Of a stretch of 54,813 nt of DNA, positions 1,472-51,225 are shown one piece after another. A program made the position numbers and the translations under genes. The DNA is from Bacillota bacterium (GTDB lineage Bacteria; Bacillota; Limnochordia; DTU087). Within the stretch, counting starts at the first letter, position 1. Each line of letters begins with the position of its first letter. The notes beneath the pieces are model-generated. The model did not search any database and was not told where the DNA came from. It was given only the letters and a program-made list of their open reading frames with translations. The stretch spans positions 1 to 54,813 of the forward strand of contig JAAZMR010000128.1 in NCBI GenBank assembly GCA_012798695.1, read 5' to 3'.

Positions 1472-1573
1472 GCCCCACGGGGATTAGGGTTGCGAAGCAA
1501 CCAGGCGAGCCTTTGGGCGAGCCAGCACCTGATCTTAATCAGGGCGTCCGGGGTTCGAATCCCCGGTGGGGTA
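1472..1573 (+). tRNA. tRNA-Lys(CTT)-like RNA with abnormal D domain
   Basis: The 3' half looks like bacterial tRNA-Lys: anticodon stem CCTGA/TCAGG, variable GCGTC, perfect T stem CGGGG/CCCCG with loop TTCGAAT. Acceptor strand GTGGGGT at 1566-1572 pairs with GCCCCAC at 1472-1478. The rest is odd. The anticodon loop TCTTAA has six bases where seven are normal (CTCTTAA would be expected). The D arm is replaced by about 48 bases holding a GGTTGC-GAA-GCAACC hairpin (1488-1502) and an 8-base direct repeat GGCGAGCC (1504-1511, 1516-1523). The 3' end reads A-CGA, not CCA. It is followed by a good terminator. It could be a decayed tRNA, an integration-site remnant or a tRNA-like regulatory RNA. It is unlikely to work in normal translation. 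Confidence 0.45.
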
Positions 1574-1580
1574 CGATCCA

Positions 1581-1612
1581 AACCTGTTGCATGCAGCGGG
1601 TTTCGTTTTTTT
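1581..1612 (+). terminator. Rho-independent terminator after the tRNA-like RNA
   Basis: Nine-pair stem AACCTGTTG/CAGCGGGTT (two G-T pairs) with loop CATG, then TCG and a run of seven T. It lies eight bases past the tRNA-like element and would end transcripts from the ars genes or from the RNA itself. Confidence 0.8.
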
Positions 1613-2675: not shown

Positions 2676-3563
2676 CTATCCGAGGCTAAGCAGCCTTTGG
2701 GCTAGTTTGCGCCCGGTGGGAGTAGATGCCAAGCCGCCCTCGGCTGTCTCCTTCAAGGCCGCAGGCATCTGCAGCCCTATGGAGCGCATAGCTTGAATCA
2801 CTTCATCGGCGGGGATGGCACTTTCAATCCCGGCTAGAGCCAAATCAGCGGCCACAAAAGCGTTGGCTGCACCAATGGCGTTGCGTTTTATGCAAGGTAC
2901 CTCCACCAAGCCGGCCACTGGATCACACGCCAGCCCCAAGACGTTTTTTAAGGCTATTGCACAGGCATGGGCGGCTTGCTCGGGTGTGCCGCCGACCATT
3001 TCAACTATAGCGGCGGCTGCCATTGCTGCTGCACTACCACATTCAGCCTGGCAACCTCCCTGGGCACCGGATATGGTAGCCTGTTTTGAGATAACAAGCC
3101 CAATTCCACCCGCGGTAAAAAGTGCCATGACGGCCTTGTGTTCTGGTATATCCTTGGTCTCCATGACAGTTAGAATGGCTGCCGGAAGGATACCACAAGA
3201 CCCGGCTGTAGGGGCAGCAACGATTCTCCCCATAGTCGCATTGACTTCAGTCACAGCTAGAGCTCTTACTAAAGCCATTCCTAAAGTGCCTCCCCCAGCG
3301 GTTTGGCCCTGTTGGACGGCCTCCAGCAGCCTATGAGCATCGCCTCCACTGAGGCCGGAAGGAGAGCGATGTCCTGGTTTGAGCCCCCATTGTACTGATT
3401 CCCGCATGACTTGCAGATTGCGTTCCATTTGCCGGTAAAGCTGATCAATGGTGCAATGCTGCTCCATGGCTTGTTGTTCGCTTACCACATCAGAGATCTG
3501 TTTCCTTTCGGAAACAGCTGTCTTCACCAACTCATCTATGGATTGATATGTGATCATGGTCAT
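2676..3563 (-). CDS. sdaAA: L-serine dehydratase, alpha subunit
   Basis: A 295-residue protein matching the alpha chain of the iron-sulfur L-serine ammonia-lyase, which turns L-serine into pyruvate and ammonia. Visible family features are GGGTLG, the AAPTAGSCGILPAA stretch with a cluster-ligand Cys, GAQGGCQAECG and LACDPVAGLVEVPCIKRN. Conserved Cys in these segments hold the oxygen-labile 4Fe-4S cluster. ATG at 3563 follows GGAGAGTG closely; a second ATG two codons on is equally plausible. Longer upstream frame is probably untranslated. It lies 60 bases behind the beta-subunit gene in the same direction, giving an sdaAB-sdaAA operon as in Bacillus. Confidence 0.95.
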   Translation of the reverse strand: MTMITYQSIDELVKTAVSERKQISDVVSEQQAMEQHCTIDQLYRQMERNLQVMRESVQWGLKPGHRSPSGLSGGDAHRLLEAVQQGQTAGGGTLGMALVRALAVTEVNATMGRIVAAPTAGSCGILPAAILTVMETKDIPEHKAVMALFTAGGIGLVISKQATISGAQGGCQAECGSAAAMAAAAIVEMVGGTPEQAAHACAIALKNVLGLACDPVAGLVEVPCIKRNAIGAANAFVAADLALAGIESAIPADEVIQAMRSIGLQMPAALKETAEGGLASTPTGRKLAQRLLSLG

Positions 3564-3623
3564 CACTCTCCAGCCAGGGATTCCCTGGACCATTGCTAGA
3601 CCCAAGGGATGTCGTTGCCAGCC

Positions 3624-4286
3624 TTATATTACGTGCAAGAATATGGCTCCAGTTACATTGGGTACGGCCTTAACCTGCCGACAGAGCTTCTCATCCACCT
3701 GCTCATCGGTTTCCAAAACAATTACACTGCGCCCACCTCGGTGTGAGCGATAGACCTTCATCTGGGCAATATTGATATTGTGACTAGCGAGAAGACTAGT
3801 CACGGCAGCAATCACTCCTGGCGTATCCTTATGGTAGACAATCAGAGTGTCATATTCGCCGGTAAACTCTGCAGGTAGGCCGTTAATCCTGTGAATCTGC
3901 ACTCTCCCCCCACCCACTGAAGAGCCTAACAGAGAAAGGAGCTTACCCGAGATGCCCTTCAGCTCGATTAGGGTTGTGTTGGGATGGACATCTCCTAGAT
4001 CCACGGGTTCAAAGCTATAACTTAAACCTTGCTCGGCGGCTAGTTGCAGGCTATCTTTAATTCTCAAATCATCGGGAGTGAAGCCTAAGAGCCCTGCGAT
4101 CAGGGCCTTGTCTGTACCGTGGCCCCGATAGGTGCGGGCAAACGAACCATGCAGCTTAATCTGGGCACAGGCTGGGCTTTCTCCTAAGAGCGCCCTGGCT
4201 ATTATGCCCAGTCGGACGGCACCGGCAGTGTGTGAACTTGATGGACCAATCATGATGGGACCGATGATGTCAAATACATTAGCCAA
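3624..4286 (-). CDS. sdaAB: L-serine dehydratase, beta subunit
   Basis: A 220-residue protein. Residues 1-140 carry the beta-subunit signature GPSSSHTAGAVRLG and the HGSFARTYRGHGTDKA stretch. Residues 145-220 form an ACT domain (DTLIVYHKDTPGVIAAVTSLL), which in this family contributes to assembly or serine sensing. The TTG start at 4286 sits seven bases behind AAGGAGG. It is the first gene of a two-gene operon with the alpha subunit. Together they let the cell use serine as carbon or nitrogen source. Confidence 0.95.
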   Translation of the reverse strand: MANVFDIIGPIMIGPSSSHTAGAVRLGIIARALLGESPACAQIKLHGSFARTYRGHGTDKALIAGLLGFTPDDLRIKDSLQLAAEQGLSYSFEPVDLGDVHPNTTLIELKGISGKLLSLLGSSVGGGRVQIHRINGLPAEFTGEYDTLIVYHKDTPGVIAAVTSLLASHNINIAQMKVYRSHRGGRSVIVLETDEQVDEKLCRQVKAVPNVTGAIFLHVI

Positions 4287-4566
4287 GGATCTGCCTCCTT
4301 CCCCGATAGGTCTTTAGAACAAGTCTATACATATTGGGTCACTTTGAAACTCTGGGTCAATGCCTACTAACAGATCTGTCCTCAGGCCCTCAGTTAGATT
4401 ACTGGAGGCGACATCATTTTCCCTTCTGTCTAAGGTAGGTAAAGCTGGTAAGATAGAAGGGGCTGCAATCCTGGGGTATAGAGAAGGAATTGGGCCAGGG
4501 AAGCATAATAGGTTTGATATGAAGCCATCGGTGAGATATCGTTTTGGCTATAGAGGGGGAGTCTAG

Positions 4567-5247
4567 TTGGAACCAGTTGTGGCAGCCGATCTAAAAATCG
4601 ATATCAATATTGGAGGGCTCTTGCAGGCACTAAGGGTAGATGAGGTAAGTGCTGATGGCGAGAGCGTTCTTGCGCTTATAGAAGCAGCTGTGGAGATAGG
4701 TAAGCCTAAAGGTATGTATAAACAGGCTTTTATCGATGAACTAGGTGATCAGCATGTGATAATAGATGGCATCCGATTTGATAGCCGGGTTCTGAGGGTC
4801 AATCTAGACGGGGTGCATAGAGTATTTCCTTATATTGTTACCGCTGGCAGGGAACTAGATGAATGGTCAATGACTATTGAGGGAATGTTAGAGCAGTACT
4901 GGGCCGACAAGATCAAAGAGGCGATACTTAGGTCGGCCTTTCGGGACTTTACTGCCCGCTTAGTCGCTGCCTATAATCTGAGAACTACAGCAGTGATGAA
5001 TCCAGGCTCGCTAGAAGACTGGCCCATTAGGGAGCAAGTTAAACTGTTCGATTTACTGGGAGACCCGCAGAAGGCTATTGGGGTGGAGCTCACTGAAAGC
5101 TGTCTTATGATACCTACCAAATCTCTTTCGGGGATTCGATTCGCCACTGAGATCACCTTTGAGAACTGCCAGCTATGTTCCCGTGAAAACTGTCCCGGTA
5201 GACGAGCACCGTATGACCCCTTGCTCTATGAAAATCGATACAAATGA
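4567..5247 (+). CDS. Stand-alone cobalamin-dependent Met synthase activation-domain protein
   Basis: A 226-residue protein resembling the C-terminal reactivation domain of MetH (PF02965): MNPGSLEDWPIREQ, a LTESCLMIPTKSLSGI segment of the SAM-binding region, and a Cys-rich end with Cys201, Cys204 and Cys209 followed by CPGRRAPYD. In MetH this domain binds SAM during reductive methylation of inactive cob(II)alamin. Free-standing versions occur in Firmicutes and anaerobes and often carry this Cys motif, which could hold a metal or Fe-S centre. TTG at 4567 follows GAGGGGGA. Its stop overlaps the start of the radical SAM gene by four bases (ATGA), so translational coupling is likely. No metH lies in the window, so it may act on another corrinoid protein. 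Confidence 0.85.
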   Translation: MEPVVAADLKIDINIGGLLQALRVDEVSADGESVLALIEAAVEIGKPKGMYKQAFIDELGDQHVIIDGIRFDSRVLRVNLDGVHRVFPYIVTAGRELDEWSMTIEGMLEQYWADKIKEAILRSAFRDFTARLVAAYNLRTTAVMNPGSLEDWPIREQVKLFDLLGDPQKAIGVELTESCLMIPTKSLSGIRFATEITFENCQLCSRENCPGRRAPYDPLLYENRYK

Positions 5248-6917
5248 ATGAGACCTTGATAGAGACCAAAAAGACAAGAGATCTAAAAGTAATGCTGATC
5301 GATGGCTATCTGGATGAGCCATCTTGCTTAGGAGTCCCACCTTATGTATCTCCTCATGTTCGCTATGCCTATGGTGCCTTGTTGGACCTAGGTATAGAAC
5401 CAGCCCATCTTATCTATGCAACCATCGATCAGCTGCGTCAGTCCCGAAACGAATATCTGGATGCAGCGCGTAGTACCGATGCAGTAATTGTCATAGCCGG
5501 GGCCACAGTGCCTGGCCGCTATCTGGGTGGCAGGCCGATTTCCACCCGGGAAATCAGTGAACTGGGTTCGGCTATTCACCCGGTCCCCCTAATCTTGGGA
5601 GGACCGATAGTGCTTTGCCAGGAGATGATCCCTGGTGTCAGTATTATGTGTGGCGAGATTGCCGCCATTTCGTTGCAGGAAATTCTGGGCGACAGATCCA
5701 TCCCAGACAAGGGTGCCGGACATTTGTGGGCGGAGAGCATAGCCCGATTTGCAGTTCTAGGAGCAGAACTCACCCCCCTTCATCCATCCTTTCCATACAT
5801 TGTCTGTGAACTAGAGACTTTTCGAGGGTGTCCCCGTCGGGAGAATTGCGCTTTTTGCAGTGAAGGGAAAAAGCAGGTGCGATACCAAAGGCCGGTTACC
5901 GACATAGTGGCAGAGGTAGAGGCCCTTGCCCGTTTGGGGAACCGGTATTATCGGCTGGGCTGTCAATCAGATCTTTTCCTCTATGGAGCCAGTACTCGGG
6001 AAGGGCAGCTCTATCCAGAACCGGCGGTGCTCCGGGATCTATATCAGGGTATTAGGCAGGCAGCACCTGAACTGGAAGTCCTGCACATGGACAACGCTAA
6101 TCCAGCGAGCATAATGCGGGATCCCAAGGCGGCAGAAACGATCATGGAGATCATCTGCCGACACAACACCCCAGGCGATGTGGCTGCCTTCGGATTGGAG
6201 TCAGCGGACCCGGTAGTGCTTGCAGCCAACCGAGTGGAGACATCTCCGGAAGAGACTCTGGCTGCAATTCGGCTGATGAATCAGATCGGTGGCCAACGCC
6301 AAGACGGTATTCCGCGGCTCTTACCTGGCCTTAACTTTCTCCATGGCCTTGTAGGTGAAAGGCCGGAGACCATGCAGATCAATCTACGCTATCTGCAAAG
6401 GCTGCTGGATGAAGACCTATTAGTACGGCGGATCAACATCCGGCAGGTACTGACTTGGGGTGGTTACAAGGCAACCCGTGTTGCTCCTCACCGTTTTCAA
6501 GCCTACAAAGATAAGGTCAATGATGAGATCAACAAGCCGATGTTGCAGAAGGTGTTTCCCATCGGCACGCTCTTGCCTAATGTGCATATCGAAGAAGTCC
6601 AGGGACAGATGAGTTTTGGCCGACAGTTGGGAACCTATCCTATCCTTGTCGGCATCCCGGGCGAAGAGTCACTGGGCAAGATCCTGGATGTCCGGGTAAT
6701 AGACCACGGCTATCGGTCTATCACCGCTTTACCCACTCCTTTTTGTATCAATCAGGCCAGTGTCGCCCAATTGGCGGCCCTCCCCGGAGTAGGACGCAAG
6801 CGGGCCATGAGACTTTTCTTGGCTCAGCCGATCCGCGATGCCCACCACATTGAGGAGCTGTTAGAAGGCCAGGTAGATCTAGGCACCATATTACCGTGGA
6901 TCGATTTCTCCATCTAA
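5244..6917 (+). CDS. Radical SAM protein with C-terminal helix-hairpin-helix (COG1031-like)
   Basis: A 557-residue protein. The first 180 residues form a Rossmann-like or cobalamin-binding-like region (LKVMLIDGYLDEP, DAVIVIAGATVPG, PLILGGPIV). The cluster motif is Cys196-x5-Cys202-x2-Cys205 within FRGCPRRENCAFC, wider than the usual C-x3-C-x2-C. A TIM-barrel part follows with GNRYYRLGCQSD and GLESADP. The end (about 503-550) is a DNA-binding-type helix-hairpin-helix, with INQASVAQLAALPGVGRKRA. This architecture matches COG1031, a group known mainly from archaea and anaerobes and without an established reaction. Coupling to the cobalamin reactivation protein suggests corrinoid or methyl-transfer chemistry; this is inference. 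Confidence 0.8.
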   Translation: MNETLIETKKTRDLKVMLIDGYLDEPSCLGVPPYVSPHVRYAYGALLDLGIEPAHLIYATIDQLRQSRNEYLDAARSTDAVIVIAGATVPGRYLGGRPISTREISELGSAIHPVPLILGGPIVLCQEMIPGVSIMCGEIAAISLQEILGDRSIPDKGAGHLWAESIARFAVLGAELTPLHPSFPYIVCELETFRGCPRRENCAFCSEGKKQVRYQRPVTDIVAEVEALARLGNRYYRLGCQSDLFLYGASTREGQLYPEPAVLRDLYQGIRQAAPELEVLHMDNANPASIMRDPKAAETIMEIICRHNTPGDVAAFGLESADPVVLAANRVETSPEETLAAIRLMNQIGGQRQDGIPRLLPGLNFLHGLVGERPETMQINLRYLQRLLDEDLLVRRINIRQVLTWGGYKATRVAPHRFQAYKDKVNDEINKPMLQKVFPIGTLLPNVHIEEVQGQMSFGRQLGTYPILVGIPGEESLGKILDVRVIDHGYRSITALPTPFCINQASVAQLAALPGVGRKRAMRLFLAQPIRDAHHIEELLEGQVDLGTILPWIDFSI

Positions 6918-7127
6918 CCACGAATACTGAATTTAATACTCACCTTCCCCAGCCCTGCTTATCCCATAAGAACCCCCATGGGTTTAATCAGCTTACAAAT
7001 GTGAAACACTAATACTCGGCACATTCTGGGAGCTGTCAAGTGAGGATGTTGGTCCCCTAAGGGATGCTCCCAAATATCTGCGCCACCGACTGCTGGCTAG
7101 GTCGGCCCATGACGGGGGTACACAATC

Positions 7128-10100
7128 TTGATGCTGGAGAACATCTTTTTGCTGATCACCTTGCTGATAGTGGGAGCAGGTGTGATGCGGGTACGTCAGC
7201 TGGCCCAACGGCCATTACCAGGGGAGCCCATCTCTGATGCACTCTTGGGCATGAATGAGTTGGAGCAGCATGCTCGGGAATTGGCTACCCGCCACCGTAT
7301 TTCCAGTGAAGCTCTGAGTAGAGGCAGGCGTTTGCCGAATCCTAAAGCGGCTGGTAAGGTGCTAGAAAATGTGCACACCAAGATGTCGCGGGTGGTGCGG
7401 GAGGGTTACAACCCCTCTCCTGCCGGCGAATGGTTGTTGGATAATTTCTATGTCATTAGCGCGAGCATTCGGGATATCCAAGGGAGTATGCCTCCAGAGT
7501 ATTATCGTGAACTTCCCAAACTGAGCAATAGCCGCATGCAGGGTTATCCACGGGTATATGCTCTGGCCCTGGATTTGATTTCCCATTCAGATGGACATGT
7601 GGATACCGAAACAATAGAACGGTTTTTTGCGGCCTACCAGTCCATTACACCATTATCTATCGGTGAGATCTGGGCTATACCTACATTCCTGCGAGTGGGC
7701 CTTACCGAGAATCTAAAACATCTTTCTCTACAAGTTCTCAATACCCACCAAGAGAGGCAAAAAGCCAACATATGGCTAGATCACCTCCTGCAGGATGCCC
7801 GCACTCGCCTGCTGAGGTTAGAAGATTTGTTGGCATCCAAAGCTCGGTCTTTACGCCGAGTGAGTGCCACCTTTGCTACTGAACTGCTCTATCGTTTACG
7901 CAATGAAGGAGCTGATGCTGCTCCATTAAGTGCCTGGCTGGACAGGCGTTTGGCTGCTATTGGCACTACTGCAGATGAGATCGTCCATTTGGAGCATCAG
8001 CGGCAATCTGCTAGGGAAATATCAGTGAGAAATGCAATCAATAGTCTGCGAGGACTGGCGGTCATTGATTGGAGTGACTCGTTTGAGCGCTTAAGTCAGG
8101 TGGAACGGATTTTGCAGACTGATCCTGATGGGACCTATTCAACTATGGACAGTGCCAGTCGCGACATGTACAGACATAGAGTAGAGAAAATTGCCAGATC
8201 TTTGGGTGTTTCCGAACGTCAGGTGGCGCGGCAGGCCATCCAGTGTGCTAGAAGCGCAGCCTCGGATAACTCTCAATTCTGGCAACATCATGTGGGGTAT
8301 TACCTAATAGACCATGGCCAAGGGCAGTTGCTGGCCCTACTGGGGCAACCACTACCTTGGGGGAGGCGGTTGGTCAGAAGTATCTCAGAACGCCGTTTTA
8401 CGCTCTACCTAGGTTCCTTAGGCCTGCTATCGCTCTTCATCACTATTGGTATTTATGCTTATGCGGGTTACTTGGGTGTGCTCAGCACCGTACTAGGTGT
8501 GCTTGTCAGCCTGATCCTGGCTAGTGATCTGGCGGTGCGTACGGTCCATGGGTTCATCACTACTTTAGTGCCTCCCCGGATCTTGCCTAAATGTGAGTTA
8601 AGACACGGTATTCCAGAAGACCATACTGCGATAGTAGTGATCCCTGCCCTGCTGCCAGATGGGCGGCGGACCCAGCAACTGATCGACCAACTTGAGGTGT
8701 ATTACCTTGCCAACCAGGATAGCAACCTTTTATTTGCCTTACTGGGCGATTTCGCTGATGCTTCTCAAGAGTCGCTGTCCAAGGATGGCGAGATAGTGAG
8801 GGTGGCTCAAGAGAGGATCCAGGAGCTCAACCATGAGTATGCAATGGAGAGCCCCATATTTCACTTCTTCTATCGGGCTCGGCTATGGAATGAATCAGAA
8901 AGCTGTTATATGGCATGGGAACGCAAACGCGGCAAGCTGGAGGAGTTCAACCGCTTGCTCAGGGGAGCCCAGGATACAACTTATGTCTTGGACGAGCTGC
9001 CCAGCTATCTTCTTAATGTACAGCACGTGATTACACTGGATGCGGATACTGGTCTACCTCGGGATGCGGCTCGACGCTTGATTGGCACACAGACCCATCC
9101 ACTTAATTGGCCGGTTCTGGATAAGGATAACCGCCATGTCATCCGTGGTTATGGTTTGCTGCAACCCCGGATCAATATTGTGGCGACTTCGGCGGCCCGC
9201 AGCCTATTTGCACGGGTATTTGCCGGCGATGGTGGTATTGATCCTTATACAACAGCGGTATCCGATGTCTATCAAGATCTGTTTGGTGAAGGCATTTACA
9301 CTGGTAAGGGGATATACCATGTCGATACGTTCAATGCTGTCTTGGGCCAGCGGCTGCCAGATAACGCCATCCTCAGCCATGATCTGTTGGAGGGCTCCTA
9401 TATTCGGGCAGGGCTAACCAGTGACATTGAATTGATAGACGGTTACCCAGCTAGGTATGATGCGTATGCACTCCGCTTACATCGCTGGGTGAGGGGTGAT
9501 TGGCAGCTCTTACCTTGGCTTCTTAAGACCGTTCCCAGTGGGGTAAAGGGTGGTAGGGAACCTAATCCCCTGTCCGCGCTATCCCGATGGAAGATTGCTG
9601 ACAATCTGCGCCGAAGTTTAGTTGCCCCTGCCTTGCTCCTTCTGATTCTAGGCGGACTGACCACGTTTCCGGGTTCACCCGTTTTCTATCTGGGTCTAGG
9701 CCTTTTAGTGCTTCTCTTTCCTTGGTTTACCATGGTGGCGGCTGGTACACTAGGTGGCCCGCGGGGCAACCGCTTCTTAGGCCATGTCTGGACTATGGTA
9801 TCAGATTCTCGAAAACAGGCCTGGCAGGTCTTTTTGTCTTTAACCTTTTTGCCCTATCAGGCGTATTTGATGGCAGATGCCGCTGTGCGCACCCTAGTCA
9901 GGTTGCGGTTTACTCGTTGCCATCTGTTGGAATGGGTGACCGCAGCCGACCTGGAAGAGCGTCTATCTTCAGGATGGCAGGCATATTGGCTGCGTATGTG
10001 GCCAGCTCAAGCCTGGGCCCTGATCTTCTTTGGTCTAATTAGGTGGGCGCGGCCGGCCAACCTCGTATGGGGCAGCCCCCTAGTTTTGCTATGGTTGGCC

Positions 10101-13100
10101 TCCCCATGGATAGCTGACAGAGTGAGCAAACCAATCGATGATCAGCCAGCTGTAGTTGGCGGTGAGGACAAGCAGCAGTTGAGGTTATATGCTCGGCAAA
10201 TCTGGCGATATTTCGAGGACTTTGTCAGTCAAGGGGATAATTGGCTGCCACCGGATCACTATCAGGAGACACCGAAGGCGTCTATAGCTCATCGAACCTC
10301 TCCTACTAATATTGGTTTGTACTTGCTATCGATTTTAGCTGCTCGTGATCTAGGATATATCGGTACACAGGAGGTCTTGAACCGAGTGGCAGCCAGTATT
10401 GCCAGCATAGAGCAGTTAGATAAGTGGCATGGACATCTCTATAACTGGTATGACACTCGGATTCTCAAGCCATTGCGGCCATTTTATGTCTCGACAGTGG
10501 ATAGTGGGAATCTGGTGGGTTATCTGATCACCCTAAGGCAGGGCCTCTTGGGGGTCTTAGCCGAGCCGGTTTTGGATCTAAAATGCTGGCAAGCAGGATT
10601 GACTGATACATTCACCTTGATGAGTTTGGAAGTAAGAGGGGATGTGCAGCAGCCTGAGGAGGCTATGGTGCAATTTACGAAGGAATCGGAGACAGCCGAC
10701 GTGGCCGCTGATCGAGTTTTGCCGGCAGCAGCCAGAGGTTTCATGGCCCTCCGGAATCTCGAACACAAACTAAGCCATGTCATTATGACAGAGCGGGCGA
10801 GAACGCAGACTGCCAGATCAAAGCAAACTTGGGCTCTGCGCTTGGCGGACATGATCGCGGCATATCGACAGGAGATTCAGATGATATGCCCTTGGGTGCC
10901 GCTGTGGGTGGACATGCCGATTGACCTTGACAAGAGCTCATTGGGGCCAGAAGCCCACCGACTTTGGTCCTCGGTGCGTGACGTATTGGATACTAGAGCA
11001 TCATTACTGGAACTACCTCGCCTCTATCAGGGGGCTGGGGAGGATTTGGATCAGCTGATTAGCCTTGTACAGAAAGCTGTGGACGCTAATCAAAGCAACT
11101 CAGAACTGCTCACATGGCTGCAGGGCTTTCAGCAAGCTCTGTGGGAATCTGCTGATCTAGCTGCCAATTGGGTACAGCATTGCTATCAGCTGATGGACAA
11201 AATCCAGGCCCTTGTCATCAACACCGATTTCCGTCACCTTTATAACGAGAAACGCCATCTGTTTTCCATTGGTTATAGCATAGATGAAGAACGCTTGACC
11301 AGGTCCTATTATGATCTATTGGCCTCTGAGGCACGGCAGGCCAGCTTCGTAGCTATTGCCAAAGGTGATGTGCCGCAGAAGCATTGGTTCCAGTTGGGAA
11401 GGACTATGCTCAAGGCCAGTGATAGCCGCACCCTGATATCCTGGAGTGGAACCATGTTCGAGTATTTGATGCCGCTTCTAGTCATGCAATGCTACCCCGA
11501 TACGCTGCTGGCAGAGGCATGTACAGCTGCCGTGAGGGAGCAGATAGAATATGGACGCAAGCAGCGGGCACCATGGGGGATATCGGAGTGCGCCTTCAGC
11601 GCATTGAATGTACAGCTGAATTACCAATACCAAGCCTTTGGTGTTCCGAGCTTAGGCCTGAAACGGGGTCTGGCACGAGATTTAGTGATTGCTCCCTATG
11701 CTTCTTTCTTGGCATTGATGGTCTATCCCGCCGCAGTTTGCGACAACATCAAAACCTTGGCCAAGCTTGGTCTGAACGGCCTGTACGGAATGTACGAGGC
11801 CATTGACTTTACTCCCGATCGAGTGTCGCGAGGTGCAGGCGGGAGCATTGTACGCATGTATATGGCCCATCATTTGGGGATGAGCCTTTTGGCACTTGAT
11901 AATTACCTCAACAATAATGTGATGAGACGGCGTTTCCATGATGACCCCTATGTGCAGGCCACTGATTTACTTTTACAGGAGCGGCTGCCTCGACACATCT
12001 CGGCGATAGAGCCAAAGGAGGACACGCTCACCACGGCTCCGGCCCCACGAACGACTGGCCCAGTGGTAACCCGCCGCTTTGTTCCGTCTGATCTGGAACA
12101 GCTCAATGTCTTCCTAGCCTCAAATGGTGCCTATTCCATTATGTTGACGACATCGGGGTCTGGGTACAGTCGCTGGGAGGATATTGCCCTATCTCGCTGG
12201 AGAAGAGATGGCATTCGGGATCAGTGGGGGATGTTTTTTTACTTAAGAGACTTGAAGAGGGACCGCCTCTGGTCAGCCACCTATCAGCCCACATTGACTG
12301 AACCCGATTCCTATGAAGTGGAGTTTGCTGATGATCGGGCTGAATTTGTGCGATGGGATAGTGGTATCAAAACCAGAATGGAGGTCACTGTTTCCTCTGA
12401 ACATAATGCAGAAGTACGGCGGATATCTTTGACTAATTACGGTCATGAATCCCGCCTGATCGAGGTGACCAGTTTCTCCGAAATCGTGCTGGATGTGAAC
12501 TCAGCTGATGTGGCCCATCCGGCCTTTAGCAACCTTTTCATTCAAACGGAATACCTCCCTGACTGCGATACTCTCATGGCTTTTCGCAGACCGCGCTATG
12601 AACACCAACAGTCCTTGTACTTGATCCATACAGTTGTCGTAGAAGGCAATACAGTAGGCGAATTGGAGTATGAAACAGATAGGGGGAAGTTCATTGGCAG
12701 GGGAAATGATGTATCTTTACCTCAGGCCTTAGGTAAACGGCTTTCGGGTAGAGTAGGTGCGGTCTTGGATCCCTGTCTCAGTCTACGCAGGCGGGTGCGC
12801 ATACCGCCTGGTAAGACAGTACGGTTGGTTTATTCGACGGCTGTAGCTAGGTCTCGGGAAGAAGCAATGAATCTGGCCAGGATCTATCACGACCCCGATG
12901 GTGCCCACCGAGCCTTTGCCTTGGCTTGGGCGCGCAGTCAAGTGGAACTCAGGTATCTTGGGTTATCCCTAACCGAGGCACATCTTTTTCAAACCATAGC
13001 TGCTCAATTGATTTATGGATATACATCCCAATCCGATCATCGCCCAGATCAGATTGTCTGTAACCAGTTAGGTCTGCAAGGCCTTTGGGCCCAAGGGTTA

Positions 13101-16100
13101 TCTGGAGAACTGCCGATCATGTTGGTCAAGATCAAGTCGAGGAAAGAAGAGGAAATCGTCAGGCAAGCTCTAGTCGCCCATGAATACTGGCGCATGAAAG
13201 GTCTCCCAGTAGATCTGGTAATCATCAATGAAGAGGCTGGGGGATATGAGCAAGCAATTCAAGATCTCCTTCGTCAGCTGATCACGAGTGGTCATGCCCA
13301 AGCCAAGGAAAATCGACCAGGAGGCGTTTTCCTCAAGCAATCGAGCCATCTATCATCAACGGAACTCAAGCTGCTGGAGACGGCTGCTCGAGTAATGGTG
13401 GGCACCGGAGTAGGCTCACTGGGAGAGAAAGCCAGAAGCCGTCCCCATCGCTTGGTTGCCGTATCCCGTCGTGGCCTTTTGGCTCGGCGGCGGCCACCCG
13501 AACTGTCTGTTAACTTTGGGAATAAGGCGGCCACAGCTAGTGACGGGGAACCGGTAAACCAAGAACCAGCCCTATCGGAGACTGAGTCAGACATTAGTCC
13601 AGATGGAGCAAGTCTTGATGAAGCCATGTCGGCCTTGCTGCCGATGCAGCTTGAGTATTTGAATGGGACCGATGGTCAGGTGGCTTTCTTCAACGGTCTT
13701 GGCGGCTTTTCCGATGGTGGGCGAGAATATGTGATGGTGTTGCATCATGGTTTAAATACTCCGGCTCCATGGATCAACGTGATCAGTAACCCCAATGCTG
13801 GATTTTTGATATCCGAATCGGGTGCGGGCTACACCTGGACAGAAAACAGCCGCGAGAATAAACTAACCCCTTGGTCCAATGATCCAGCAATTGACCCTCC
13901 TGGTGAGGTTTTATATCTACAGGATCTAGATACTGGAGACTTATGGTCTCCCACTGCCACACCTATCCGGGAAACAGAACCTTATATCGTCAGCCACGGA
14001 CAAGGCTATTCCCGATTTTTCCATGATAGCCACGGTATTGAGCAGGTATTATGGGCTTACGTACCCCTGGAGGCTCCTGTCAAGATCTATCGATTAAGAT
14101 TGAAAAACCGGAGTGGAGATCAACGTCGTCTAGCGGTAAGTCTCTATGTGGAATTGACGCTGGGGGTTCACAGGGAAACAACTGATCAGTATATAGTGAC
14201 TGAGTTCGATGGGAAAAGTCAGGCATTGCTTGCTCGCAATTCTTTCCGAGATGATATTTATGCTCACCGGATAGCCTTTGCCGCATCATCTCTGGAGGGT
14301 ACGAGCCATACCGGTGATCGGCGTGAATTTATTGGGCGCCACGGAACCCTGGCATCACCCAAGGGATTAGCGGCATCAGCATTGTCCGGTAAAGTGGGCT
14401 CCGGTCTAGATCCTTGTATGGCGATTAAGGCTCCCTTGAAGCTGGAACCAGGGGAAGAAATTGAGGCGATCTTTCTATTGGGAGAGACAGATAGCCTTGG
14501 TGAAATGCGGAGATTGGTAGAGAAGTACACTGTGACGGTACAAGCCCAGGCCAGTCTCCAGGAGGTACAAGCCTGGTGGGATGAGACTCTTGGTGTTGTA
14601 GAGATCAAGACTCCTAACCATGGGTTGGACCTTTTGGCCAATCGCTGGCTGCTCTATCAGAATCTGGCCTGCCGCATGTGGGGCCGTTCCGCTTTTTATC
14701 AAGCTAGTGGTGCTTACGGATTCCGCGACCAGCTGCAGGATAGTATGGCTTTGCTGCTTTGCCGGCCCGAAATCACACGAGCCCATATTCTGCGGGCCGC
14801 TGCCCAGCAATATATCGAAGGTGATGTACAGCACTGGTGGCACCCTGATTCCAATAAGGGAATCAGAACTCGCTTTGCTGATGACTTGCTCTGGCTGCCA
14901 TTGGTTGCTGCCAAGTACGTGACGGTCACAGGAGATACATCCATCTGGGAGGAGGAAATCGGATTCCTCGAAGATGAGCCTTTGCGGCCAGAAGAACAGG
15001 AGCGTTTTGGTATACCTCGGCGCTCATCTGAAAAGGGCAGTATTCTTGAACACTGCTGGCGGGCAATCGATCATAGTCTGCGGTTTGGCGAACATGGCCT
15101 GCCGCTGATGGGCTCCGGGGACTGGAATGATGGCATGAACAAGGTGGGTTGGCAAGGCAGTGGTGAGAGTGTATGGATGGGCTGGTTTCTATGCACGATT
15201 CTAACCGAATTTGTCCCCATTGCTGAAGCACATGGCGATACTGAACGAGCCCGTCGCTACAGTCGAGAGGCTAAGCGTCTGGCCCATGCCCTGCATCAGT
15301 CGGCTTGGGATGGCGAATGGTATAGGCGAGCCTATTTCGATGATGGCACACCCTTGGGCTCAGCTAGCAACGAAGAATGTAGAATTGACTCTATCTCTCA
15401 ATCTTGGGCAGTGATCTCAAAAGCGGCTGATCCTAAACGGGCACAGGAAGCTATGCGTGCAGTTGGTGATTATCTGGTACGCAAGGAGGATGGACTAATT
15501 CTACTTTTGGCACCTGCTTTTGATCGGATGAACCCCGATCCTGGCTATATCCGTTCCTATGTGCCAGGAGTGAGGGAGAATGGCGGCCAATACACCCATG
15601 CGGCCATGTGGGTGATCATGGCCACTGCCATGTTAGGTGAAGGTGAAAAGGCCATGGAGCTGTTCGATCTGGTGAATCCCATTCACCATGCTGCAGACTT
15701 AGGCAGTGCTCTGCTGTACCGAGTGGAGCCTTATGTCGTAGCGGCAGATGTAGCTGCGGTTTCACCTAATACGGGCCGAGGAGGGTGGACCTGGTATACC
15801 GGGGCTGCGGGGTGGATGTATCAAGTGGTGGTGGAATGGATTCTGGGTCTGAAAGTAAGAGGTACTCATTTTACCTTGGAACCCTCTATTCCCCGGGGCT
15901 GGTCCCAGTTCCAACTCAACTATCGCCATAGAACGACCAGATATGAAATAACGGTGGTCAATCCCGAGGGGATTGAATCTGGCGTAATCGAGGTCCGGCT
16001 CGATGGGGTAGTAGTCCCAGAAAGGCTGATCCCCCTTTGGGATGACAACAGCACCCATCAGGTAACAGTGACGATGGGTATCAGGGCCAGTGAGGATCAA

Positions 16101-16139
16101 GCAAGTGATCAGCTTGATGAGTTTGTATCGATCACCTAA
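7128..16139 (+). CDS. ndvB: Giant cyclic beta-1,2-glucan synthase (GT84 + GH94)
   Basis: A 3003-residue membrane enzyme of the NdvB/ChvB type, which builds, cyclises and trims beta-1,2-glucan from UDP-glucose. Order seen: soluble N-terminal region; membrane segments about 425-475; GT84 domain about 500-800 with WERKRGKLEEFN, DADTG near 637 and LHRWVRGDWQ; more membrane segments about 825-995; glycoamylase-like domain about 1365-1590 (SGTMFEYLMP, APWGISECA); a GH94 beta-sandwich about 1660-1860 and another about 2190-2425; and the GH94 (alpha/alpha)6 domain about 2490-2910 with GDWNDG at 2664-2669, the motif that holds the family's catalytic Asp. Slightly longer than proteobacterial homologues (about 2800-2900). 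Start is TTG at 7128 or ATG at 7131, behind GGGGG. Product is probably a periplasmic or secreted glucan. Confidence 0.93.
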   Translation: MMLENIFLLITLLIVGAGVMRVRQLAQRPLPGEPISDALLGMNELEQHARELATRHRISSEALSRGRRLPNPKAAGKVLENVHTKMSRVVREGYNPSPAGEWLLDNFYVISASIRDIQGSMPPEYYRELPKLSNSRMQGYPRVYALALDLISHSDGHVDTETIERFFAAYQSITPLSIGEIWAIPTFLRVGLTENLKHLSLQVLNTHQERQKANIWLDHLLQDARTRLLRLEDLLASKARSLRRVSATFATELLYRLRNEGADAAPLSAWLDRRLAAIGTTADEIVHLEHQRQSAREISVRNAINSLRGLAVIDWSDSFERLSQVERILQTDPDGTYSTMDSASRDMYRHRVEKIARSLGVSERQVARQAIQCARSAASDNSQFWQHHVGYYLIDHGQGQLLALLGQPLPWGRRLVRSISERRFTLYLGSLGLLSLFITIGIYAYAGYLGVLSTVLGVLVSLILASDLAVRTVHGFITTLVPPRILPKCELRHGIPEDHTAIVVIPALLPDGRRTQQLIDQLEVYYLANQDSNLLFALLGDFADASQESLSKDGEIVRVAQERIQELNHEYAMESPIFHFFYRARLWNESESCYMAWERKRGKLEEFNRLLRGAQDTTYVLDELPSYLLNVQHVITLDADTGLPRDAARRLIGTQTHPLNWPVLDKDNRHVIRGYGLLQPRINIVATSAARSLFARVFAGDGGIDPYTTAVSDVYQDLFGEGIYTGKGIYHVDTFNAVLGQRLPDNAILSHDLLEGSYIRAGLTSDIELIDGYPARYDAYALRLHRWVRGDWQLLPWLLKTVPSGVKGGREPNPLSALSRWKIADNLRRSLVAPALLLLILGGLTTFPGSPVFYLGLGLLVLLFPWFTMVAAGTLGGPRGNRFLGHVWTMVSDSRKQAWQVFLSLTFLPYQAYLMADAAVRTLVRLRFTRCHLLEWVTAADLEERLSSGWQAYWLRMWPAQAWALIFFGLIRWARPANLVWGSPLVLLWLASPWIADRVSKPIDDQPAVVGGEDKQQLRLYARQIWRYFEDFVSQGDNWLPPDHYQETPKASIAHRTSPTNIGLYLLSILAARDLGYIGTQEVLNRVAASIASIEQLDKWHGHLYNWYDTRILKPLRPFYVSTVDSGNLVGYLITLRQGLLGVLAEPVLDLKCWQAGLTDTFTLMSLEVRGDVQQPEEAMVQFTKESETADVAADRVLPAAARGFMALRNLEHKLSHVIMTERARTQTARSKQTWALRLADMIAAYRQEIQMICPWVPLWVDMPIDLDKSSLGPEAHRLWSSVRDVLDTRASLLELPRLYQGAGEDLDQLISLVQKAVDANQSNSELLTWLQGFQQALWESADLAANWVQHCYQLMDKIQALVINTDFRHLYNEKRHLFSIGYSIDEERLTRSYYDLLASEARQASFVAIAKGDVPQKHWFQLGRTMLKASDSRTLISWSGTMFEYLMPLLVMQCYPDTLLAEACTAAVREQIEYGRKQRAPWGISECAFSALNVQLNYQYQAFGVPSLGLKRGLARDLVIAPYASFLALMVYPAAVCDNIKTLAKLGLNGLYGMYEAIDFTPDRVSRGAGGSIVRMYMAHHLGMSLLALDNYLNNNVMRRRFHDDPYVQATDLLLQERLPRHISAIEPKEDTLTTAPAPRTTGPVVTRRFVPSDLEQLNVFLASNGAYSIMLTTSGSGYSRWEDIALSRWRRDGIRDQWGMFFYLRDLKRDRLWSATYQPTLTEPDSYEVEFADDRAEFVRWDSGIKTRMEVTVSSEHNAEVRRISLTNYGHESRLIEVTSFSEIVLDVNSADVAHPAFSNLFIQTEYLPDCDTLMAFRRPRYEHQQSLYLIHTVVVEGNTVGELEYETDRGKFIGRGNDVSLPQALGKRLSGRVGAVLDPCLSLRRRVRIPPGKTVRLVYSTAVARSREEAMNLARIYHDPDGAHRAFALAWARSQVELRYLGLSLTEAHLFQTIAAQLIYGYTSQSDHRPDQIVCNQLGLQGLWAQGLSGELPIMLVKIKSRKEEEIVRQALVAHEYWRMKGLPVDLVIINEEAGGYEQAIQDLLRQLITSGHAQAKENRPGGVFLKQSSHLSSTELKLLETAARVMVGTGVGSLGEKARSRPHRLVAVSRRGLLARRRPPELSVNFGNKAATASDGEPVNQEPALSETESDISPDGASLDEAMSALLPMQLEYLNGTDGQVAFFNGLGGFSDGGREYVMVLHHGLNTPAPWINVISNPNAGFLISESGAGYTWTENSRENKLTPWSNDPAIDPPGEVLYLQDLDTGDLWSPTATPIRETEPYIVSHGQGYSRFFHDSHGIEQVLWAYVPLEAPVKIYRLRLKNRSGDQRRLAVSLYVELTLGVHRETTDQYIVTEFDGKSQALLARNSFRDDIYAHRIAFAASSLEGTSHTGDRREFIGRHGTLASPKGLAASALSGKVGSGLDPCMAIKAPLKLEPGEEIEAIFLLGETDSLGEMRRLVEKYTVTVQAQASLQEVQAWWDETLGVVEIKTPNHGLDLLANRWLLYQNLACRMWGRSAFYQASGAYGFRDQLQDSMALLLCRPEITRAHILRAAAQQYIEGDVQHWWHPDSNKGIRTRFADDLLWLPLVAAKYVTVTGDTSIWEEEIGFLEDEPLRPEEQERFGIPRRSSEKGSILEHCWRAIDHSLRFGEHGLPLMGSGDWNDGMNKVGWQGSGESVWMGWFLCTILTEFVPIAEAHGDTERARRYSREAKRLAHALHQSAWDGEWYRRAYFDDGTPLGSASNEECRIDSISQSWAVISKAADPKRAQEAMRAVGDYLVRKEDGLILLLAPAFDRMNPDPGYIRSYVPGVRENGGQYTHAAMWVIMATAMLGEGEKAMELFDLVNPIHHAADLGSALLYRVEPYVVAADVAAVSPNTGRGGWTWYTGAAGWMYQVVVEWILGLKVRGTHFTLEPSIPRGWSQFQLNYRHRTTRYEITVVNPEGIESGVIEVRLDGVVVPERLIPLWDDNSTHQVTVTMGIRASEDQASDQLDEFVSIT

Positions 16140-30238: not shown

Positions 30239-32533
30239 ATGCAGCTAAAAAACGTACCGGAGACATTTCGTGGATATGTGCTTGATGGATTTCAGCGAGA
30301 GGCTATAGCTCATCTGCTGCAAGGAGCCTCTGTCTTTGTGGCAGCACCTACTGGTTCAGGTAAGACCCTGATTGCCGACTATGTAGTGGAGATGACTCGC
30401 CCCACAAAAAAGGGAGTGATTTATACTGCTCCGATCAAGGCACTGAGTAATCAGAAGTTCAAGCAGTTCCGAGATACATTTGGGGAAGAAAATGTTGGCC
30501 TAGTTACCGGTGATGTAGTTAGGAACGACACTGCACCGGTATTGCTTATGACAACAGAAATTTTTCGCAACATCCTATTTGATCACAGTCGTTCACTAGA
30601 GGATATTGCCTATGTCATCTTTGATGAGATCCACTACATTGCCGATGAAGACCGAGGTTTCGTTTGGGAGGAAAGTCTGATCTTCCTGCCAGAGCATATC
30701 CGCTTTCTAGGTTTGAGTGCAACCATTGCCAATGGCCATGAGTTGAGCAGCTGGATGGCTACATTGCGTTCAGAACCCGTCACTGTCGTAGAATACCGGG
30801 AACGGCCGGTACCTTTGTCTCATAGCTACTTTGCTCCAGGGGTGGGGCTCACAAATCTAGCGAGACTGGATAGCTACTATCTCAGCGAGGTGGCGCGCAT
30901 GGAAGCTGCTGGAACGGGACGTGTAGATTTTCCTTTGGCCAAGCATGTGGACCTGATCGATACCTTAGGAGAACAGCATCTCCCCCTGCTGTTTTTTGTC
31001 TTTAGCCGTCGCGGTTGTGAAGCCCATGCTTTGGACCTGGCCAAGGATCACGATTACCTGAATGAACAGGAGACTTGGCTGGTTCGGGAGGCTGCCCAGC
31101 GTCATCTTTGGGGACGAGAGCTGGAAACCTTAGGTAGTGTTATCCAATTGACTGAGATACTGGAAAGGGGAATAGCCTATCATCATGCGGGCCTCTTGCC
31201 GGCTTGTAAGGAATTGGTGGAGGAGCTGTTCGAACGAAGACTTGTCAGGGTCCTATATGCCACCGAGACCTTTGCTGTGGGTGTAAATTTCCCTGTACGA
31301 ACTGTCTGTTTTGACAGTTATACCAAGTACGATGGGCGAGGTTTCCGTCAGTTGACAGTAGGGGAATATTTCCAGATGGCCGGCCGGGCAGGCCGTAGAG
31401 GTATTGATGAAGAGGGTTTTGTATACACCATGGTGGACCTGAATTTCTATCAGCCCGGGGAGTTGGAAGATCGGGTAGAGGATAATGTTGAGCCCCTTTG
31501 GAGTCAGTTTGATCTCACCTACAATTCGGTGCTAAATCTGACTGCCCGCTACAAGACTCCAGAGCAAATCCGGGATGTACTGGAGCGCAATTTATTGGTT
31601 TACCAGAATCAAAGGCATTACCAACGGCTGCAGGATGAACTCTTGAATGTTTCTGATCAAGTCCTCAGCCTGACCGCTGAACGATGCCCTCATCATGATC
31701 AGGATACCTGCATTGAAGCTGTAAAAAAGGCCCGTCGTCAAGTCGATAAACTGCACAAAGAGTTGGTAAATATGCGAGGTAAGGGTCGCACGCATCAGCG
31801 TCGAAGACAGGTTTTGCGAAAGCTGCATAAGCTGGGAGAAACGACGCAGAATGCATCCATCTATCGCTGTAGTAAGGCGGAGAGAGATCAATGTCGGTAT
31901 CGGGAGCGTCAAATCCGTAGAGGAGAAAGGCGTCTTCGAGAGCTGAAAGGGAAGATGCGCCTGGTGCTCACTCAGGAGCGCCTATACGAGTCCTTCCTGG
32001 CGAAACAGCGGTTCTTGGAGCGGCTGGGATATATTGAAGCCGGAGAACTAACCGGACGTGGCCAGATAGCAGCAGGGCTTTATGTACAGGAGTTGCTGGT
32101 TACTGAGTTGTTGTTTGATGGTACTTTCCATGAGTTGTCTGAAGATGCCATTAATGCACTGTCGGTCTGCATCGATTATGAACCACGTAAAGATGAAGTG
32201 GTTCGGGCCTGGAGACTTGTAGATCTGAGCCATGCGCAGAAACTCGCGGCCGAGTTGGCCTTGATGGAGAAGGAATTGCTAGATGAGCAGCGAGTCCGGT
32301 TTCACAATAGTTTACATGAATTAGCCTATCGCTGGAGTAAGGGAGACACCTTTCTTGAGCTGATGGGTGAAGCGGAAGCCATGGCCGAGGGGGATATTGT
32401 CAGTGCGTTCCGTAGGGGTATAGATCTATTGAGACAGGTGCGACGGGTCTGTGTAGAAGATGAGCAGCTGCGGGCCAAACTATCGCGATGTATGAAGAAA
32501 ATGGACAGAGGTGTGGTCGAAATCCGGCTTTAG
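30239..32533 (+). CDS. Ski2-like superfamily II RNA helicase (first copy)
   Basis: A 764-residue DExH helicase. Motifs in order: LDGFQREAI (Q-like), APTGSGKT (I), TAPIKALSNQKF (Ia), LVTGD, MTTEIFRN, DEIHYI (II), GLSATIAN (III), AYHHAGLLP (IV), ATETFAVGVNFP (V) and QMAGRAGRRG (VI). Residues about 460-600 form a Lys/Arg-rich helical insert with Cys-His pairs (RCPHHDQDTC, YRCSKAERDQC), possibly a metal-binding arm like that of Mtr4-type proteins. The end resembles the DSHCT domain. ATG at 30239 follows GGAGG; TTG at 30227 is an alternative. Probable role: unwinding RNA for decay or processing. A paralogue lies at 44.4 kb. Confidence 0.88.
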   Translation: MQLKNVPETFRGYVLDGFQREAIAHLLQGASVFVAAPTGSGKTLIADYVVEMTRPTKKGVIYTAPIKALSNQKFKQFRDTFGEENVGLVTGDVVRNDTAPVLLMTTEIFRNILFDHSRSLEDIAYVIFDEIHYIADEDRGFVWEESLIFLPEHIRFLGLSATIANGHELSSWMATLRSEPVTVVEYRERPVPLSHSYFAPGVGLTNLARLDSYYLSEVARMEAAGTGRVDFPLAKHVDLIDTLGEQHLPLLFFVFSRRGCEAHALDLAKDHDYLNEQETWLVREAAQRHLWGRELETLGSVIQLTEILERGIAYHHAGLLPACKELVEELFERRLVRVLYATETFAVGVNFPVRTVCFDSYTKYDGRGFRQLTVGEYFQMAGRAGRRGIDEEGFVYTMVDLNFYQPGELEDRVEDNVEPLWSQFDLTYNSVLNLTARYKTPEQIRDVLERNLLVYQNQRHYQRLQDELLNVSDQVLSLTAERCPHHDQDTCIEAVKKARRQVDKLHKELVNMRGKGRTHQRRRQVLRKLHKLGETTQNASIYRCSKAERDQCRYRERQIRRGERRLRELKGKMRLVLTQERLYESFLAKQRFLERLGYIEAGELTGRGQIAAGLYVQELLVTELLFDGTFHELSEDAINALSVCIDYEPRKDEVVRAWRLVDLSHAQKLAAELALMEKELLDEQRVRFHNSLHELAYRWSKGDTFLELMGEAEAMAEGDIVSAFRRGIDLLRQVRRVCVEDEQLRAKLSRCMKKMDRGVVEIRL

Positions 32534-35305: not shown

Positions 35306-35645
35306 CACAAGTCTACCTGTAAGCGGGATTCTGTCATTTAAGGCAACCATCTATCTCAGAAGCTAGGATTACTTCCGCCCACAAAGGGTGCCGCTACCAT
35401 AATTTGCGTTGCTGGCTGGTGGGGCTTTCCTCGTTTCATCCGCCGCGTTGCCACGGAGGCTCGTTTCTGTGGAGCTTTTATAGCTACTACTACCCCAGGG
35501 GGATAGGTTTGCTGCCGTCAGGTCACCCTGCCACAGCTTGTGCTGTGCACCAACTTTCTTGCCTGAGACAGGCAAGGCCAGTCCCGACTTTCCTCTAGTG
35601 GTCGTCCTGCGAAGGCCACCAGCGGTTGCCCAGTAGACTTGAGTC
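35306..35645 (-). ncRNA. rnpB: RNase P RNA
   Basis: The catalytic RNA that trims tRNA 5' ends. On the minus strand it contains the universal P4 and core motifs GAGGAAAGTCGGGACT near the 5' side and ACAGAATCCCGCTTAC near the 3' side. Its ends pair as the P1 helix: CAAGTCTAC (35633-35641) with GTAGACTTG (35308-35316). Length of about 340 bases fits a bacterial type A molecule, which is the ancestral form. Bacillus has type B, so this also separates the organism from Bacilli; the class call is tentative. It follows tRNA-Trp by only 35 bases. Confidence 0.92.
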
Positions 35646-35662
35646 TTGGCTCTGTGCCTTGC

Positions 35663-35680
35663 TGCCGCCTCATGGCGGCA
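35663..35680 (-). other. Stem-loop between tRNA-Trp and RNase P RNA
   Basis: TGCCGCC (35663-35669) pairs with GGCGGCA (35674-35680), loop of four. It directly follows the tRNA 3' CCA and has no T tract, so a processing signal on a joint transcript is more likely than a terminator. Confidence 0.4.
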
Positions 35681-35756
35681 TGGCAGGGGAGACAGGAATC
35701 GAACCCGCAGCCCCCGGTTTTGGAGACCGGTGCTCTGCCAATTGAGCTACTCCCCT
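35681..35756 (-). tRNA. tRNA-Trp (anticodon CCA)
   Basis: A 76-base cloverleaf with acceptor AGGGGAG/CTCCCCT, D arm AGCTCAATTGGCAGAGC, anticodon stem CCGGT/ACCGG with loop CTCCAAA (anticodon CCA), and T arm with GGGTTCGATTCC. The 3' CCA is encoded. All conserved positions are intact. Confidence 0.97.
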
Positions 35757-50593: not shown

Positions 50594-50686
<93 letters not shown>

Positions 50687-50734
50687 AAACAGTAATGAGT
50701 AGACATATGACTACTGCATCGGCACAATTGATTG

Positions 50735-50825
<91 letters not shown>

Positions 50826-50862
50826 GCAAATCCGGACAGGGGCAATACCTGGCCGGATTTGC
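50826..50862 (+). terminator. Stem-loop after the tRNA-Ser pair
   Basis: Perfect 10-pair stem GCAAATCCGG (50826-50835) with CCGGATTTGC (50853-50862), two bases after the tRNA CCA. Only ATCTTAGTT follows, so termination is likely but not textbook. Confidence 0.6.
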
Positions 50863-50896
50863 ATCTTAGTTCGACGATTGACCTATCCCGGTTATC

Positions 50897-50925
50897 TTGA
50901 CTTTCGGTCATTAGCCGAGTATAAT
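50897..50925 (+). promoter_or_regulatory. Promoter of SRP RNA
   Basis: TTGACT (50897-50902), a 17-base spacer and TATAAT (50920-50925), a near-consensus sigma-A promoter, about 30 bases before the mature RNA. Confidence 0.8.
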
Positions 50926-50954
50926 TTTCAACGGATAGTAAATAGTCAATAATA

Positions 50955-51225
50955 TTGCCGTGCTAGACGGGGCAGTAGCGGGGCCCTGAACCCGAAAACC
51001 GCTATAGCGGGGTCGAATTCCCGCTTCAGGGTTGGGCCAACGGGGCCTGGTCCGGGCAAGTGGTGTTGACGATTGGGTCTTGCGCAATAAGGCTTCATGA
51101 ATCCCGTCAGGTCCGGGAGGAAGCAGCGGTAAGTGAACAACCTTATGTGCCGCGAGGGTGCCTAGTCCGAGCTAACGACCTGGGTGCCGCTCGGGGGTGT
51201 CGATTCGAGAGCGGGTGCACGGCAG
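50955..51225 (+). ncRNA. ffs: Signal recognition particle RNA, long Firmicute form
   Basis: About 270 bases of the long SRP RNA of Gram-positive spore formers (Bacillus scr type), with an Alu domain. The 5' part has GACGGGG, then ACCCGAAAACCGCTATAGCG. The conserved tip is GTCAGGTCCGGGAGGAAGCA with GCGGTAAG near 51107-51134. Ends pair: TTGCCGTGC at the 5' end with GCACGGCAG at the 3' end. It binds Ffh and targets membrane and secreted proteins. Own promoter and terminator visible. Confidence 0.95.

Follow-up and report, generated by a model that had tools for sequence, protein, structure and literature searches.

The window, by which we mean the whole stretch of 54,813 nucleotides analysed here, opens on the forward strand with a short operon. 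An ArsR-family regulator, the 5′ end of which is lost at the contig start, lies at 3–254 (Pfam HTH_5 (arsR family), E = 6.8e-15), an ArsP-type permease at 289–1206 (Pfam ArsP_1, E = 6.8e-56), and a small ORF of 58 amino acids, the last of the operon, at 1265–1441 (from the ORF list; no family match). At 1472–1612, a tRNA-like sequence follows in the same orientation. To its right is a D12-class adenine methyltransferase at 1640–2470 on the reverse strand (Pfam MethyltransfD12, E = 8.7e-43) and then, at 2676–9127 and named from sequence, serine dehydratase subunits (SdaA/SdaB-like), a "VEPVV" protein, a radical SAM-like protein, and the start of a giant glycan-synthase-like gene. The last is an ORF of 3003 codons (7128–16139), which we take to resemble cyclic glucan synthase/GH94 proteins. 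Farther along, the window contains a Class B RNase P RNA beside tRNA-Trp (35315–35756) and two tRNA-Ser genes followed by a large SRP RNA (50594–51222).

At the junction, the forward strand reads GCCCCAC at 1472–1478, an acceptor-like 5′ strand that can form seven of seven pairs with GTGGGGT at 1566–1572 (one of them G-U). An anticodon helix, CCTGA/TCAGG, spans 1528–1543 around the loop TCTTAA, and a T arm, CGGGG-TTCGAAT-CCCCG, can be read in the sequence at 1549–1565. Aligned with native genes (ACCA), positions 1574–1576 have CGA where relatives carry a genomic CCA; the window thus reads ACGA at 1573–1576 and does not encode CCA. The initial annotation had rightly given the anticodon loop as six bases, CCA as missing, and a strong terminator as directly following (a 10-bp stem and T run at 1580–1610). 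It had also described a rebuilt D domain. The 6-pair hairpin of that domain is present (hairpin 1, GGTTGC-GAA-GCAACC, 1488–1502), and so is its 8-base direct repeat, with GGCGAGCC occurring twice within 1504–1523, but the repeat is simply both arms of a second hairpin (hairpin 2, GGC-GA-GCC-TTTG-GGC-GA-GCC, 1504–1523), and the whole segment is better read as the end of a foreign element.

Measured as a functional tRNA, the sequence at 1472–1612 has no model call, no D arm, and an anticodon loop one base short. ARAGORN calls in the window tRNA-Trp and the two tRNA-Ser only, with no tRNA at 1472–1612, and the Rfam tRNA model RF00005 finds no match there at either the gathering or a permissive threshold (E up to 10). 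The acceptor, anticodon, and T stems had been called intact. Their bases are all present, but the predicted folds suggest that the outer helices are intact base by base only: the ensemble retains the acceptor-like helix, hairpin 1, and the anticodon helix, while the T arm opens (pairing probability 0.001), and a cloverleaf-like fold (−48.4) falls short of the MFE (−55.1) by 6.7 kcal/mol. The acceptor match itself is near chance: when the upstream segment is shuffled, ~4% of the resulting sequences contain a 7-bp match with at most one G-U, and 23% do if G-U pairs are freely allowed. A longer match, CCCCA-CGGGGATT at 1473–1485 against the tRNA 3′ end, has a shuffle P of 0.003, uncorrected for its post hoc choice.

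On the right side, the origin of the sequence is clear. Positions 1524–1574 are 98% identical to the intact tRNA-Lys(CTT) of genomes G002, G003, and G006 and reach the 3′ end of that gene, so that 1524–1573 (forward strand) is the displaced 3′ half of a tRNA gene native to this lineage, its anticodon loop lacking one base. In the family, the intact tRNA-Lys(CTT) follows tRNA-Met(CAT) in G002, G003, G005, G006, G007, G008, and G010. The gene 3′ of it in G005, G007, G008, and G010 is a D12 methyltransferase, 74–77% identical to that of the window, followed by the VEPVV and radical SAM-like proteins. On contig C152 of G006 it is followed by two serine dehydratase subunits, the VEPVV and radical SAM proteins, and the giant gene, in the order of the window and at 70–76% identity; in G003, by part of the same gene set. 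Together, these six relatives cover the gene order of the window from the methyltransferase through the dehydratase subunits, VEPVV, and radical SAM to the giant gene. Since the same genes follow intact tRNA-Lys(CTT) in relatives, the right side is the original chromosome. The hairpin and T run are likewise mostly present after intact tRNA-Lys(CTT) copies with assembled downstream sequence, and the terminator at 1580–1610 (forward strand) is that of the tRNA gene, which now closes the operon on its left.

On the left side, other DNA stands where relatives have the tRNA-Met and the 5′ half of tRNA-Lys(CTT). The ArsP-type permease has, among 10 other family members, a best full-length match of 31% identity and is elsewhere absent or partial. 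By GC content, the left side does not stand out (0.49 vs. 0.51). Between operon and tRNA half, the ~75-bp segment 1448–1523 (forward strand), hereafter the arm, has no counterpart in normal tRNA-Lys. Among 73 genomes of the class, it is found at only two further places: the window is 81% identical to contig C246 of G058 over 124 bp (1448–1569) and to contig C58 of G006 over 112 bp. A 24-base exact pattern from the arm occurs on those two contigs only among 84,980 GTDB species genomes and patterns from it are absent from viral contigs; matches in phage and plasmid collections are to the tRNA-Lys half only. In both G006 and G058, the arm is joined to the 3′ half of tRNA-Lys(TTT) and not of tRNA-Lys(CTT), from which it follows that arm and tRNA half are of separate origin. 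One upstream sequence attached to the halves of two tRNA genes would fit the attachment sites of one element family. The two relatives are not strongly independent of each other, since both come from the same study. The G058 contig may moreover be binned with the wrong organism, as its tRNA half matches the family of the window and not the other tRNA-Lys genes of its bin.

These three sequences bear directly on whether the locus is a functional RNA, that is, a tRNA-like regulatory or structural RNA in which two hairpins have replaced the D domain, kept by selection and with its own terminator. Its fold is strong against its own shuffles (z = −3.7, or −4.6 with flanks), a value that is not surprising in a sequence made of a tRNA half and two hairpins. 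The terminator after the tRNA-like part, the potential of the 5′ segment to pair with the 3′ end of the tRNA, and the two arm hairpins also speak for it: both hairpins hold across the three copies, hairpin 1 identically and hairpin 2 with one compensatory pair change between the window and the relatives (C-G vs. U-A). However, in both relatives, three of the seven acceptor pairs and three of the five anticodon pairs are broken, and the acceptor helix is not formed in the consensus fold of the copies. The pairing expected of a tRNA-like molecule is further undercut by the open T arm, and a search with the sigma-70 consensus finds no promoter-like site upstream, between the small ORF and 1472. 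The unit occurs in three places only, each time on a tRNA half, and the window copy stands at a native tRNA locus. We therefore regard such an RNA as improbable. Given the broken pairs, neither a regulatory tRNA mimic nor a non-canonical tRNA, both offered by the initial annotation, finds support. It had looked to homologues for compensatory changes and had held that acceptor and anticodon stems without covariation, together with a missing transcript, would point to a decaying pseudogene; with these pairs broken in the two relatives, the covariation half of that statement describes what is found in the three sequences available.

The initial annotation had also listed an integration scar carrying a tRNA 3′ half, and this option is borne out by the native downstream flank, the foreign upstream DNA, and the same end on a different tRNA-Lys. 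Very probably, 1472–1612 is such a scar, an attR-like junction left by an element inserted in the native tRNA-Lys(CTT). Synteny on the right, the shared arm on the left, and two different tRNA partners of that arm are direct observations. Three features of an attR are there: a fragment that runs to the 3′ end of its tRNA gene, native chromosome beyond it, and a foreign end common to separate insertions. The junction is of an ordinary kind; this instance of it is new.

In outline, an integrative element would have entered the native tRNA-Lys(CTT) by site-specific recombination at the anticodon stem-loop, presumably through a tyrosine recombinase. The 3′ half, the terminator, and the chromosomal right flank are still in place from 1524 on, and the upstream 5′ half with the tRNA-Met has given way to arsR, arsP, the small ORF, and the conserved element end of about 75 bp, a putative left arm of attP. 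The "anticodon stem" would then be a composite, its left half-site contributed by the element and its right half by the host, and this would explain the loss of the D arm as well as the mismatches in the anticodon stem of the relatives. The breakpoints, from AGCACCTGA in the window and from GGACTTTTAATCC in G006 and G058, fit a crossover site in the anticodon stem-loop. At the other end of the element, its attP copy may have rebuilt a tRNA-Lys. No integrase linked to the junction was found in the window: the contig begins at base 1, for which reason the other junction and the integrase of the island are not seen. The draft assembly holds two tyrosine recombinase genes, neither linked to the junction; each relative also has one or two.

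Alternatively, the locus could be a decaying tRNA-Lys(CTT) pseudogene in which a simple deletion or rearrangement, and not a site-specific element, brought the 3′ half next to other chromosomal DNA. The marks of decay (the lost loop base and the change of CCA to CGA), the absence of an integrase nearby, and the loss of tRNA-Met and the 5′ half would all suit such an event; in the draft assembly (130 contigs), neither an intact tRNA-Lys(CTT), which the initial annotation had expected to be checked for elsewhere in the genome, nor a tRNA-Met of the relatives' type is found. Yet a simple deletion does not predict the same ~75 bp at the homologous position of a different tRNA-Lys half on two other contigs, nor a permease operon without close counterpart in the family, and we hold it unlikely. 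An assembly chimaera, with an unrelated contig joined to the tRNA half, is less probable still. The draft state of the assembly with its 130 contigs lends itself to such joins, and other contigs do begin at or inside tRNA-Lys genes (C31 of the source genome, G000, and C72 of G007), but the arm also adjoins tRNA-Lys halves in two other bins, and the tRNA half carries two sequence changes, which a misjoin does not produce.

Under the scar reading, these two changes look like relaxed decay of the tRNA half. With one loop base lost and CCA changed to CGA, this half has most likely lost its function as a tRNA. Its present role is likely only that of terminator to the co-directional operon, given that the small ORF ends about 30 bases before 1472 on the same strand with no sigma-70-like site between. 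It is plausible that 1472–1612 is transcribed mainly as the 3′ end of the arsR–arsP operon.

Other tRNA loci of the family and the source genome bear on the element. On G058 contig C246, the junction region (1652–1954) is flanked on both sides by stretches collinear with a paralogous contig, C26, from which the region is absent, and this copy is for that reason best read as an attP. Both contigs carry paralogous segments of an element, of which only that on C246 includes the attachment region; C246 also encodes a RuvB-like ATPase. In the source genome, a copy of the sequence 3′ of its tRNA half (74 bp, 76%) directly follows tRNA-Arg(ACG). Direct repeats TGACAGCTAAATGACAGC occur both 3′ of that tRNA-Arg(ACG) and beside the G058 left arm, placed as arm-type sites would be; the window has none. 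A short ORF beside the G058 junction was considered as the N-terminus of an integrase, and is not used as evidence because Pfam gave nothing, PHROGs only weak endonuclease matches, and tblastn against phages no support. For the G006 element, a reading as a tRNA lacking the D arm (acceptor GAGCCAT/ATGGCTC, CCA present) was rejected: the 8-base match has a shuffle P of 0.10 and the anticodon stem contains mismatches. Gene synteny of C58 of G006 with other tRNA-Lys(TTT) loci does not extend beyond ~85 bases past the tRNA. On contig C59 of G010 (60–150), a displaced 3′ half of tRNA-Lys(TTT) has a different, unrelated 5′ flank and may be a further insertion at tRNA-Lys in the family. In the source genome, contig C53 (~170–240) carries, after an unrelated ORF, a displaced fragment of tRNA-Arg(ACG) that begins at about position 8 and runs to CCA; the intact tRNA-Arg(ACG) is on C100, where it is followed 3′ (31775–32500) by a terminator, direct repeats TTTGACAGCTAAATGACAGCAACC, and a putative IS21-type transposase-like ORF, named from sequence.

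Tyrosine integrases acting in tRNA genes, in many cases with the crossover at the anticodon loop, leave behind a displaced 3′ fragment on one side of the insertion and, on the opposite side, a rebuilt tRNA (PMC4383910, PMC9897764, PMC8371274). The anticodon stem-loop is a known integrase crossover site (PMC4383910, PMC8371274), and for tDNA-targeting islands it counts among the standard sublocations of crossover (2083 of 3919 islands; PMC4383910). Like Islander islands (PMC4383910) and category 1b attR fragments (PMC9897764), the locus has a 3′ tRNA fragment with native downstream flank, a foreign 5′ side, and a breakpoint at the anticodon loop region; unlike them, it is seen from one end, the integrase and any rebuilt tRNA lying off the contig. 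An attachment site in a tRNA-Lys gene is shared with mycobacteriophages Boilgate and Fionnbharth, which integrate in tRNA-Lys(TTT) with a tyrosine integrase (PMC10865867), the enzyme class we infer here. Those are actinobacterial phages, whereas the window has tRNA-Lys(CTT), belongs to an uncultured Bacillota lineage, and carries a permease as cargo. With non-canonical tRNAs and tRNA mimics (RF00005 clan), the locus has in common recognisable T and anticodon arm sequences and a possible acceptor pairing, but it has neither a match to any tRNA model nor conserved acceptor and anticodon pairing.

Two features go beyond what the scar model requires: the complementarity between 1473–1485 and the tRNA 3′ end, and the compensatory change in hairpin 2. 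On the strength of this remainder, one could imagine that the two-hairpin arm of about 75 nt on a tRNA-Lys half acts as RNA or as folded single-stranded DNA and not as plain protein-binding DNA; it might be a structured attachment arm, for instance, or a tRNA-sequestering RNA that regulates the element. We give this little credence.

The odd tRNA-like locus is thus settled, to our minds, as an integration scar and not as a new kind of RNA, and it illustrates that a tRNA half with a near-chance acceptor match can mimic a new RNA class. In this uncultured Bacillota family, the tRNA-Lys genes are repeated insertion sites for elements with a common attachment arm, and an operon of the arsenic/metal-permease type appears to have arrived with one of these elements.
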